A stretch of DNA of 64,000 nucleotides. Origin: Ewingella americana ATCC 33852. GTDB taxonomy: Bacteria > Pseudomonadota > Gammaproteobacteria > Enterobacterales > Enterobacteriaceae. This document shows, in pieces, positions 52,174-55,546 of this stretch (the stretch's first letter is position 1; each line of letters opens with the position of its first letter). The DNA is taken from the NCBI RefSeq assembly GCF_000735345.1, contig NZ_JMPJ01000025.1:1-64000 (forward strand), read 5' to 3'. The notes beneath the pieces are model-generated. The model was not told the DNA's origin and did not search any database. It saw only the letters and a list, made by a program, of their open reading frames with translations. A program made the position numbers and the translations under genes.

Positions 52174-52223
52174 ATACTTGAGTAAATTACTAGGTTAAAT
52201 AGTTGACTGAAATACTCGGGAAT
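52174..52223 (+). promoter_or_regulatory. Tandem type-1 IscR sites and iscR promoter
   Basis: Two adjacent 25-bp segments, 52174-52198 and 52199-52223, match the type-1 IscR consensus (ATASYYGACTR-WWW-YAGTCRRSTAT) at about 20 and 23 of 25 positions by eye. The second contains the -35 box TTGACT. This is the layout of the autoregulated E. coli iscR promoter. Confidence 0.82.
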
Positions 52224-52279
52224 GGCAGACTCGTTTGCATGTTCTACCCCCAACGTATTCTTCAACAGGTAACCATGCT

Positions 52280-52774
52280 ATGAGACTGACATCCAAAGGC
52301 CGTTATGCCGTAACCGCTATGCTTGATGTAGCACTGCATTCACAGGAAGGTCCGGTTCCTTTAGCCGATATCTCCGAACGCCAGGGCATCTCTCTTTCTT
52401 ATCTGGAACAGCTGTTTTCGCGTCTGCGTAAAAACGGTCTGGTTGCCAGTGTGCGTGGTCCGGGCGGTGGTTATCTGCTGGGTAAAGACGCCAGTGAAAT
52501 CGCAGTAGGTGCGGTGATCACGGCTGTTGACGAGTCAGTCGACGCAACCCGTTGTCAGGGTAAAGAAGGCTGCCAGAACGGCGAACGTTGTCTGACCCAC
52601 ACCTTGTGGCGTGACCTGAGCGAGCGCATTAGCGGCTTCCTCAACAACATTACGCTGGGTGAACTGGTGAACAACCAAGAGATTCTGGAAGTGGCGGATC
52701 GTCAAAATGGCGAAACGCGTCGCCAGCCTTCAGGCCGTATCCTTGAAACGATTAATGTGAATTTAAGAGCTTAA
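52280..52774 (+). CDS. iscR: Fe-S cluster-sensing regulator IscR
   Basis: A 164-residue Rrf2-family regulator (E. coli 162). The winged helix ([40 protein letters not shown]) is intact, and the cluster ligands C92, C98, C104 and H107 are all present at E. coli numbering. As [2Fe-2S]-IscR it represses its own promoter; as apo-protein it still acts on type-2 sites such as suf. The start at 52280 matches the conserved N-terminus. A strong terminator follows the gene, so it is probably monocistronic, unlike in E. coli. Confidence 0.96.
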
Positions 52775-52810
52775 GCCCTGCACTAAATGGCTTGAGGTCG
52801 AAAATCGCGA

Positions 52811-52837
52811 AAGGGCTGCCATTGGGCAGCCTTTTTT
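52811..52837 (+). terminator. Intrinsic terminator between iscR and iscS
   Basis: GGCTGCC (52814-52820) pairs with GGCAGCC (52825-52831), loop ATTG, then six T. It would separate iscR from iscS transcriptionally. A promoter for iscS must then lie in 52838-52950; no strong box was recognised there. Confidence 0.88.
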
Positions 52838-52963
52838 ATTCCTCTAGAGAATGCCAGTAGGGCACTATTTTCCTTTTAAGATTCAGTGCAGCCGTTTTAA
52901 ACTAGCCCTCGTTTTTAAACTCTCTCGTTCGCTCTCGAACGTGCAGTACGGAGCATGCCCGCC

Positions 52964-54133
52964 ATGAAATTACCTATTTATCTGGATTATTCAGCCACCA
53001 CGCCTGTTGACCCGCGGGTAGCCGAGGCCATGATGAAATGTCTGACCTTTGACGGTACTTTTGGTAATCCAGCATCCCGTTCCCACCGTTTTGGCTGGCA
53101 GGCGGAAGAGATTGTCGATGTCGCTCGCAACCAGATTGCCGAGCTGATTAATGCCGACCCGCGCGAAGTGGTGTTCACTTCCGGCGCAACCGAGTCCGAT
53201 AACCTCGCCATTAAAGGCGCAGCGCATGCCTATCGCGACAAGGGCAACCACATCATTACCAGCCAGACCGAGCACAAAGCGGTGCTCGACACCTGTTTGC
53301 AGCTGGAAAAAGAGGGTTTTGATGTCACCTATCTGGCCCCCAATGCTCAAGGCGTGATCACCCCAGCGGCCATTGAATCCGCACTGCGTGAAGACACCAT
53401 TTTGGTTTCAATCATGCATGTAAACAACGAGATAGGCGTGATTCAGGATATCGCGGCAATTGGCGAACTCTGCCGCAGCCGTGACATCATCTTCCACGTC
53501 GATGCTACCCAAAGCGTCGGCAAACTGCCGGTCGATCTCAGTGAGTTGGCAGTCGATCTGATGTCCTTCTCCGCGCATAAAATCTATGGTCCGAAAGGCA
53601 TCGGTGGCCTGTATGTTCGCCGCAAACCCAAAGTCCGGATTGAAGCGCAGATCCACGGCGGCGGGCATGAGCGCGGTATGCGCTCCGGGACTCTGCCGGT
53701 GCATCAGATTGTCGGCATGGGCGAAGCTTTCCGCATCGCTAAAGAGGAGCTGGCGAATGAAGCGCAGCGCCTGAATGCATTGCGTGACCGTCTGTGGCAA
53801 GGTATCCAGCAATTAGAAGGCGTGCAGATTAATGGCTCGCCTGAGCATAGCGCGCCGAACATTCTTAACGTCAGTTTTAGCGGCGTTGAGGGCGAGTCGC
53901 TGATTATGGCGTTGAAAGATTTGGCCGTCTCTTCTGGCTCTGCCTGTACTTCGGCAAGCCTCGAGCCATCTTATGTTTTACGCGCTCTGGGGTTAAGCGA
54001 GGATCTGGCTCACAGTTCTCTGCGTTTTTCTCTGGGACGTTACACCACGGCGGAAGAGATAGATTACGCTATCGACCTGATTGTGAAATCAGTCAGTCGT
54101 TTACGCGAGCTACCGCCGGTATTCTCGTCTTAA
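52964..54133 (+). CDS. iscS: Cysteine desulfurase IscS lacking the C-terminal tail
   Basis: A 389-residue PLP enzyme that moves sulfur from cysteine to an active-site persulfide. K206 ([10 protein letters not shown]) binds PLP and C328 ([10 protein letters not shown]) carries the sulfur, both at E. coli numbers, so the enzyme should be active. After SRLRELPPV the protein ends in FSS-stop, whereas E. coli IscS continues for about 18 residues with the tail that docks IscU. GGAG lies 10 bases before the ATG at 52964; an ATG three codons earlier is too close to it. iscU and the rest of the operon are absent: pepB follows after 102 bp. Confidence 0.95.
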
Positions 54134-54235
54134 GTGACCCGAACACAGCAACATTATGTTAGAGAACGTCAGGGCTAAACGCCTGTAATTGAAGACAATA
54201 CTTTCATTGAAAAATAAAAAAGCAGGAGTGCAGTT

Positions 54236-55546
54236 ATGAGTTCCGAAGTCACCACCAATGAATCCATGCCGATTTTCTTGTCTTCTCAGCCTGCCGACGC
54301 ACGCTGGGGCGAAAAAGCGACATTAAGCACTAATGCCGAAGGCATGACTATTCATCTGACCTCCGACAACCCGCTGGTGACCATCGCCCGCGCAGCTCGC
54401 CGTATCGACGGTCAGGGTGTGAAAAACGTAGCGCTGGCCGGTGAAGGCTGGGATCTGGAAAACAGCTGGGCGTTCTGGCAGGGCTTCCGCGGGCCAAAAG
54501 GCAGCCGCAACGTTGAGTGGGCTGAACTGTCAGCTGAAGACACTCAAACCCTGCAACAACGTCTAAAAATTATCGACTGGGTTCGCGACACCATCAACCT
54601 GCCAGCAGAAGAGTTAGGGCCAGAGCAGTTGGCAACTCGCGCGGTGGACCTGATGTGCGAATTCGGCAATGGCCACGTTCACTATCGCATCACCAAGGGC
54701 GACGACCTGCGCCAGCAAAATTACGCCGGTATCCACACCGTGGGCCGTGCTTCAGACCGCGCACCGGCATTCTTGGCGCTGGATTACAACCCAAGCGGCA
54801 ACGCCGATGAGCCTGTTTATGCCTGTCTGGTCGGTAAGGGCATCACCTTTGATACCGGCGGCTACAGCCTGAAACCAAGCGCGGGCATGGATTCGATGAA
54901 GTCCGACATGGGCGGCGCGGCGACGCTGACCGGTGCTCTGGCACTGGCTGCGGCCAATGGCCTCAACAAGCGCGTTAAGCTCTACCTGTGCTGCGCGGAC
55001 AACATGGTCGGCGGCAACGCGATGAAGCTGGGCGATATCATTCGCTACCGCAATGGCAAAACGGTTGAAGTGATGAACACCGACGCCGAAGGCCGTCTGG
55101 TACTGGCTGATGGCCTGATCGACGCTTCTGAGCAGAACCCTGAGTTGCTGATTGATGCAGCAACCCTGACCGGTGCCGCCAAAACCGCGCTGGGCAACGA
55201 TTACCACGCTCTGTTCAGCTTCGACGACGAGCTGGCCGCTGAGTTGCAAAACAGCGCGAAAGAAGAGTTCGAACCCTTCTGGCGCCTGCCTCTGGCTGAG
55301 TTCCACCGTTCTTACTTGCCATCTAACTTCGCGGAATTGAACAACATGGGCAGCCCGTCACACACTGCCGGTGCCAGCAACGCAGCGGGCTTCCTGTCCC
55401 ACTTCGTTAAGAACTACAAAAAAGGCTGGTTGCACATTGACTGTTCAGCCACTTACCGCAAAGGCGCTGTTGACCAGTGGGCCGCTGGCGCGACCGGTAT
55501 CGGTGTGCGTACCGTCGCTAACCTGCTGTTGGCGAAAGCAAAATAA
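54236..55546 (+). CDS. pepB: Aminopeptidase B (PepB)
   Basis: A 436-residue M17 leucyl-aminopeptidase (E. coli 427), with the metal site [15 protein letters not shown] and the signature [14 protein letters not shown]. It releases N-terminal residues from cytosolic peptides. In E. coli it lies directly after iscX; here it follows iscS directly. AGGAG lies upstream of the ATG and a terminator follows. Confidence 0.96.

Follow-up and report, generated by a model that had tools for sequence, protein, structure and literature searches.

The DNA analysed here is a stretch of 64,000 nt from Ewingella americana ATCC 33852 (hereafter the window, labelled G000:C25 in our genome set). Its subject is the isc locus, at which relatives that retain the iron-sulfur cluster (ISC) assembly system carry iscUA-hscBA-fdx-iscX. 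In the window, iscR is followed by iscS and then by pepB. The features of the locus are as follows:

52280..52774, + strand: iscR, iron-sulfur (Fe-S) cluster-sensing regulator (NCBIfam NF008110, 331 bits, cut-off 275)
52964..54133, + strand: iscS, cysteine desulfurase of 389 aa (NF010611, 711 bits, cut-off 548; frame open from 52955)
54089..54133, + strand: truncated C-terminus of IscS, from E. coli residue 376 onward (alignment to 1p3w; the IscU-binding segment according to PMC2854127)
54134..54235, + strand: iscS-pepB spacer of 102 bp, free of remnants, at the site of iscUA-hscBA-fdx-iscX in ISC-retaining relatives
54236..55546, + strand: pepB, aminopeptidase B, bordering the deletion on the right (NF003450, 742 bits, cut-off 437)

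The iscS stop codon ends at 54133 and the pepB ATG lies at 54236, leaving 102 bp between them. The original prediction, made from the letters of the window, had described this spacer as empty of isc remnants; the coordinates agree, and no isc similarity was found in it with tblastn (E<=0.05) or blastn (E<=1e-3). The scaffold, carrier, co-chaperone and ferredoxin genes had also been called absent after iscS, and this held for the whole window: ten reference proteins from a Kluyvera locus (isc operon members and flanks), searched by tblastn at E<=1e-3, revealed no IscU, IscA, HscB, HscA, Fdx or IscX. The HscB search covered the window only. The distance between iscS and pepB was 3.7-4.4 kb in 31 of 32 ISC-retaining loci fetched from the same family, and 7.4 kb in the remaining one (L169).

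Assembly collapse had been named as one result that would refute this observation. The same iscR-iscS-pepB junction was present in the five other searched genomes of the genus, in one of them on a 4.66-Mb contig. The truncation of isc is confirmed as real: it does not come from a collapsed assembly, nor is it peculiar to this strain. The window also contains trmJ, sseB and rlmN, together with two genes that we take from their sequences to be suhB and ndk.

ISC and SUF genes across the family

Gene presence and absence, and their recurrence, are shown directly by the data. In the assembly that contains the window (G000: 4.87 Mb, 92 contigs, 100% complete), and in five further genomes searched from its genus, the NifU_N domain (IscU, NifU, SufU) had no match. 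No HscA in G000 exceeded the cut-off of 709 bits: the best match, at 624 bits, was a 633-aa frame, DnaK-like by length and score. The isc-type [2Fe-2S] ferredoxin, IscX and the frataxin domain likewise had no match in G000. Relocated isc genes would have contradicted the original prediction; no iscU, hscA, isc-type fdx or iscX was found in this genome. SUF, which had been proposed as the obvious alternative supplier of clusters, is complete and intact there, with six adjacent genes in the order sufA-B-C-D-S-E, identified by Pfam domains (L175).

Among the 392 genomes of the family (as defined by the database), 115 had no NifU_N match. Because many of these are small and symbiont-like, the analysis was confined to large genomes. 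Those of about 2 Mb or more without intact IscU numbered 52, a lower bound: 47 had no NifU_N match at all and five, noticed by eye, had only NifU-type matches or an iscU fragment. Four (G013, G079, G201 and G387) were excluded before any count. The resulting comparison set comprised 80 genomes of one family, chosen as 48 without ISC (ISC−) and 32 with it (ISC+).

SufB/SufD were found in 48/48 ISC− and 27/32 ISC+ genomes. Over curated cut-offs, HscA was present in none of the 48 ISC− genomes versus all 32 ISC+ genomes, and the same counts were obtained for the isc-type ferredoxin; IscX was found in 0/48 versus 30/32. Sub-threshold ferredoxin matches occurred in four ISC− genomes, the one in G067 being a stop-containing fragment 3.5 kb past iscS. 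A-type carriers numbered three in each ISC− genome, G000 included; ISC+ genomes had four where SUF is present (27 genomes) and three where it is missing (five genomes). IscS had a match in 51 of the 52 large genomes without intact IscU, and ThiI exceeded its cut-off in 45/48 ISC− and 32/32 ISC+ genomes.

Several further observations concern individual genomes. ThiI consists of two adjoining pieces in G389 (G389:C1:1441331-1442427) and G175 (G175:C1:612686-613800), and the match in G218 is weak (27.9 bits). The opposite case, loss of SUF, also occurs in the family: the ISC+ genomes G154, G019, G062, G126 and G139 have no SufB/SufD. G035 and G096 keep ISC and have no IscX match, and G027 keeps ISC and has no CyaY match. 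G387 (4.6 Mb) has neither an IscU nor an IscS match, though others in genus g163 have IscU; this is perhaps an assembly gap.

The frataxin gene cyaY is unlinked to the isc locus and lies between cyaA and dapF. It was intact in 0/48 ISC− genomes (with a fragment in G375) and present in 31/32 ISC+ genomes. The cyaA-dapF interval measured 848-865 bp in three CyaY-bearing genomes and 445 bp, without cyaY, in G000. No intact cyaY was found in any of the 20 ISC− regions fetched; 18 of these were measurable, with intervals of 384-506 bp in 16, 689 bp in one and 3643 bp in G067, where a 25-residue CyaY-like fragment persists. G375 stands midway, with an iscU fragment behind iscS, cyaY in two pieces and a nearly intact IscS tail. 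The cyaA-dapF interval of this genome also holds an open frame of 390 aa that resembles a transporter by eye (L240 5929-7101).

The number of events was estimated from a marker tree of SuhB, TrmJ, IscR and PepB (105 rows: 54 ISC−, 51 ISC+), built with a quick method and containing some long branches. The tree requires nine state changes, of which at least six are forced by well-supported branches. Fixation of the loss in a clade, which the original prediction had asked to be checked, is seen around the window: its clade of 19 rows is wholly ISC− (support 98). The tree alone cannot separate gain from loss. Fragments of isc genes (IscU, HscA, IscX) persist at the ancestral site in several ISC− lineages (9/53 ISC− spacers by tblastn, a few more by blastn), and for this reason the direction is read as loss. 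Together, these data indicate that ISC has been lost repeatedly across Enterobacterales. Sister genomes with and without ISC occur within single genera (g165 and g138); of the four g165 genomes examined, G263 retains ISC. The named ISC− loci, eight among the 80 kept from a contig scan, belong to Pantoea anthophila, Pantoea stewartii, two further Pantoea, Erwinia persicina, an uncultured Erwinia, Lonsdalea quercina and an unclassified Enterobacterales bin.

Lost and retained surfaces of IscS

Alignment of the window IscS with chain 1p3w_B was gap-free over residues 1-387 of the latter. We take 1p3w to be E. coli IscS; the Kluyvera reference IscS matches it gap-free over 404/404 residues, and E. 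coli numbering was therefore used directly. The erosion of IscS is shown directly at the level of residues. The active-site loop around Cys328 (SSGSAC), used as a mark of IscS-type (group I) cysteine desulfurases, is intact in the window, and C328 is present in 56/56 ISC− rows. The C-terminal docking segment (376-404) is absent from the window protein. Its tail motif (at least 6 of 7 residues) was found in 51/51 ISC+ rows versus 1/54 ISC− rows, the exception being G375. Apart from G375, the ISC− tails vary by clade and the protein ends between residues 382 and 405.

Published partner footprints were used for comparison. For E. coli IscS, PMC2854127 places the IscU contacts at 309-316, 347 and helix 379-391, and reports poor IscU binding when the protein is cut at 374/376. 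The same source gives the residues required by TusA (W45, E49, D52), those strongly required by ThiI (R220, R237/M239, R340) and those required by CyaY/IscX (R116, R220, R223, R225/E227, G234, R237/M239, A327, R340). According to two further papers, ferredoxin requires R220/R223/R225 and binds more weakly to R112E/R116E (PMC3750173), and the binding of acyl carrier protein (ACP) involves R112 and R116 (PMC13343975).

The TusA contacts W45, E49 and D52, together with R55, were kept in all 56 ISC− rows. Twelve residues of the CyaY/IscX table, each present in 50/50 ISC+ rows, fared differently among the 56 ISC− rows: R39, R220 and A327 were each kept in 56; G234, R237 and M239 each in 55; R340 in 48, R225 in 45, R223 in 35, E227 in 30, R116 in 23 and R112 in 7.

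Retention of sites invariant in ISC+ IscS was averaged over 12 ISC− groups taken from the tree (two unplaced rows counted as one group), with the following results:

TusA set: 1.00
strong ThiI set: 0.91
catalytic loop: 0.91
other sites of residues 1-375: 0.91
IscU helix 8 set: 0.74
CyaY/IscX/ferredoxin/ACP set without the strong ThiI residues: 0.58
helix 12: 0.52
whole tail: 0.37

Against random sets of ISC+-invariant sites (20,000 draws), the CyaY/IscX/ferredoxin/ACP set was low (P 0.0003), as was the IscU helix 8 set (P 0.017), and the TusA set was at its maximum (P 0.055). In six supported independent pairs, the scores with and against ISC were 5.0/0 for the tail, 5.5/0 for CyaY, 4.0/0 for R112, 2.1/0 for R116 and 1.0/0 for R237, while W45 and R220 did not differ in any pair. 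The alignments indicate that after loss of ISC, IscS sheds the C-terminus that docks IscU and, in part, the site for CyaY, IscX, ferredoxin and ACP, with the TusA contacts staying in place.

Seven positions outside the published footprints used here (E138, E285, E286, E294, N306, Y307 and K260) are invariant or nearly so in ISC+ IscS and often changed in ISC− IscS. They are candidates for undescribed contacts within the ISC complex.

Regulation of iscR, iscS and sufA

Two further features of the window bear on regulation:

52203..52224, + strand: conserved iscR promoter element, TTGACTGAAATACTCGGGAATG
52814..52837, + strand: terminator-like hairpin with T-run in the iscR-iscS gap, GGCTGCC-ATTG-GGCAGCC-TTTTTT, -13.4 kcal/mol

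The promoter element apparently corresponds in position to the type 1 IscR site of E. coli, and was conserved at 14 or more of 17 positions in 53/54 ISC− and 51/51 ISC+ loci. The CX5CX5C cluster ligands of IscR are present in 53/54 ISC− and 50/51 ISC+ loci, and all three cysteines occur in the window. Because the promoter element is retained in ISC− loci, IscR in these cells probably still senses cluster supply. Clusterless IscR activates suf in E. coli according to PMC12594620, and in a cell with SUF alone such activation would give a simple feedback.

The hairpin between iscR and iscS was found in 11/11 genomes (six of the window's genus and five of the sister genus g59) and could release iscS from IscR autorepression. 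A generic scan did not list this hairpin and found no sigma-70-like promoter between the two genes. As a general sign of uncoupling, an iscR-iscS terminator was rejected: an automatic count gave 12/54 ISC− loci (L111 being unconvincing) versus 4/51 ISC+ loci.

Upstream of sufA, a type 2 IscR site was sought with a consensus in four suf promoters and rejected as unconvincing against shuffled sequences, of which 33 (L175), 300 (L177), 128 (L176) and 57 (L178) out of 300 scored as well. An element resembling C[CT]CT...GGTTGAAG, of unproven identity, was seen 5' of sufA in 32/37 ISC− and 19/27 ISC+ promoters.

Scores for Fur boxes at sufA cover 37 of the 48 ISC− genomes and every ISC+ genome with SUF (27). 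The best match to the consensus GATAATNATTATC averaged 8.8/12 in ISC− versus 10.8/12 in ISC+ genomes (Mann-Whitney P 5e-8, kinship ignored), and a 19-base version gave 11.8 versus 14.1 of 19, with 10.6 and 10.7 for shuffled sequence. Over six independent pairs the score changed in the expected way in 3.4, in the opposite way in 0.1 and was equal in 2.5, which is not significant. The score is still 11 in three ISC− promoters, and is already weak in some ISC+ sisters of ISC− lineages (G133, G158 and G263). These figures are suggestive only of a Fur box before sufA that is weaker on average in ISC− genomes.

Interpretation and comparison with known systems

We put at about 0.87 the probability that the window belongs to a lineage with SUF alone, in which the ISC genes and cyaY were lost and IscS was kept as a sulfur donor for tRNA and thio-cofactors, its surfaces for former partners having eroded. 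We infer the following functions and sequence of events. In the window's lineage, presumably free-living in view of its full-size genome, an ancestor would have lost the isc scaffold, carrier, chaperone and ferredoxin genes and the unlinked cyaY, and sufABCDSE would have taken over Fe-S cluster assembly. IscR would stay as cluster sensor and autoregulator, and IscS as sulfur donor for tRNA thiolation (through TusA and ThiI) and thio-cofactors. Freed of its old partners, IscS may then have shed the segment at its C-terminus that docks IscU, along with part of the arginine/lysine patch that serves CyaY, IscX, ferredoxin and ACP, while keeping the residues for TusA and most of those strongly needed by ThiI. 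Such a role of IscS in tRNA thiolation and other sulfur transfer had been proposed in the original prediction, and the conservation of these residues together with the presence of ThiI supports it. Recurrence across Enterobacterales, the co-loss of cyaY and the erosion of IscS at the lost interfaces go beyond what had been predicted.

Several points weigh against this reading or against the specificity of the erosion. ThiI is split in two ISC− genomes (G175 and G389) and below cut-off in a third (G218). The footprint sets were drawn up from published mutant data once the alignment had already been inspected, and with only six independent well-supported contrasts sign tests cannot give strong P values. 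The median share of core sites matching the ISC+ consensus is 82% in ISC− IscS versus 95%; the whole protein being more diverged in these lineages, the erosion is partly a general relaxation. R39 and G234, needed by CyaY/IscX and not by ThiI, are retained; R116 and R223, with a weak ThiI effect, erode, and F89, also weak for ThiI, is often changed. E286, N306, Y307 and E138 erode though they lie outside the partner footprints taken from the papers.

The last of these points, with E138, E286 and N306 in particular, and the higher divergence of the whole protein, would fit a general rise in surface rate after the Fe-S role vanished, without interface specificity. We consider this rather unlikely, since clade-averaged retention is 91% at the other sites of residues 1-375 and 100% at the TusA contacts, which are also surface, against 58% at the CyaY/IscX/ferredoxin/ACP set and 37% in the tail. 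Less probable still is that IscS continues to feed Fe-S assembly by passing sulfur to the SUF system, either straight to SufBCD or by way of SufE, only its ISC-specific surfaces being lost. The near-universal keeping of IscS (51/52 large genomes) and of its catalytic loop (91%, clade average) would accord with such a role; the suf operon, however, has its own SufS and SufE, and the best-conserved IscS residues are those for TusA, with no pointer to a SUF contact.

Replacement of the whole unit by an iscR-iscS pair from another bacterium appears very improbable: no support for horizontal transfer was found, the genes stand at the ancestral site, flanked by trmJ and pepB, where pieces of IscU, HscA and IscX still occur in several ISC− lineages. 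The assembly is in 92 contigs, which would leave room for a collapse or a strain-specific deletion with the isc genes really present. That explanation is nevertheless excluded for practical purposes, because the junction recurs in five other assemblies of the genus; the surrounding clade of 19 rows is wholly ISC−, and IscU, HscA, Fdx, IscX and CyaY are all missing, though cyaY is unlinked and completeness is 100%.

Within the favoured reading of a SUF-only lineage, we lean slightly towards regarding repeated ISC loss as a natural dissection of the IscS hub, in which the IscU, CyaY/IscX/ferredoxin and ACP surfaces erode and cyaY goes, while TusA and ThiI docking stays. If so, the ACP-IscS contact would serve ISC alone, SUF would become housekeeping through weakened Fur repression at sufA, and CyaY would have no function worth keeping outside ISC. 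The last would run contrary to a physiological role at SufS, a 2024 proposal according to which CyaY also regulates this enzyme (PMC11446229). The absence of intact cyaY from all 48 SUF-only genomes argues against an important SUF role of CyaY; it does not disprove a CyaY-SufS effect in E. coli. By gene content, full-size genera of E. coli's family manage without ISC, the supposed housekeeping system. The ISC+ and ISC− sisters provide matched natural pairs that bear on why two systems exist, on what frataxin/CyaY does, on whether the recently described ACP-IscS contact matters beyond ISC and on partner-specific IscS residues.

The suf gene set resembles that of E. coli, which has iscRSUA-hscBA-fdx-iscX and sufABCDSE, and the isc site between trmJ and pepB and the iscR promoter element are like those of the ISC+ relatives compared; E. 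coli itself presumably has isc between trmJ and pepB and the same promoter element. Unlike the two-system state of E. coli, the window's lineage is without the ISC-specific genes after iscS, cyaY and the IscU-docking tail. Searches of open-licence papers turned up no account of ISC being lost repeatedly in full-size Enterobacterales, nor of a matching erosion of IscS. PMC11559095 describes ISC as housekeeping and SUF as the stress system in E. coli, attributes the two-system state to E. coli and other Enterobacteriaceae, and states that bacteria with a single Fe-S system mostly have SUF; in contrast to its picture of Enterobacteriaceae, gene content points to SUF alone in no fewer than 48 of the full-size genomes analysed here.

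All prokaryote genomes bearing cyaY also had iscU according to PMC4440780, and this co-occurrence also holds here; repeated joint loss within Enterobacterales and the decaying intermediate G375 extend it. A further parallel is Mycobacterium tuberculosis, in which, according to PMC10848736, a stand-alone iscS accompanies SUF, and depletion of the SUF system is bactericidal. In both cases the isc operon is reduced to a lone cysteine desulfurase beside SUF. Unlike in that distant actinobacterium, IscR is kept here, and losses recur within a single order that also contains ISC+ sisters.

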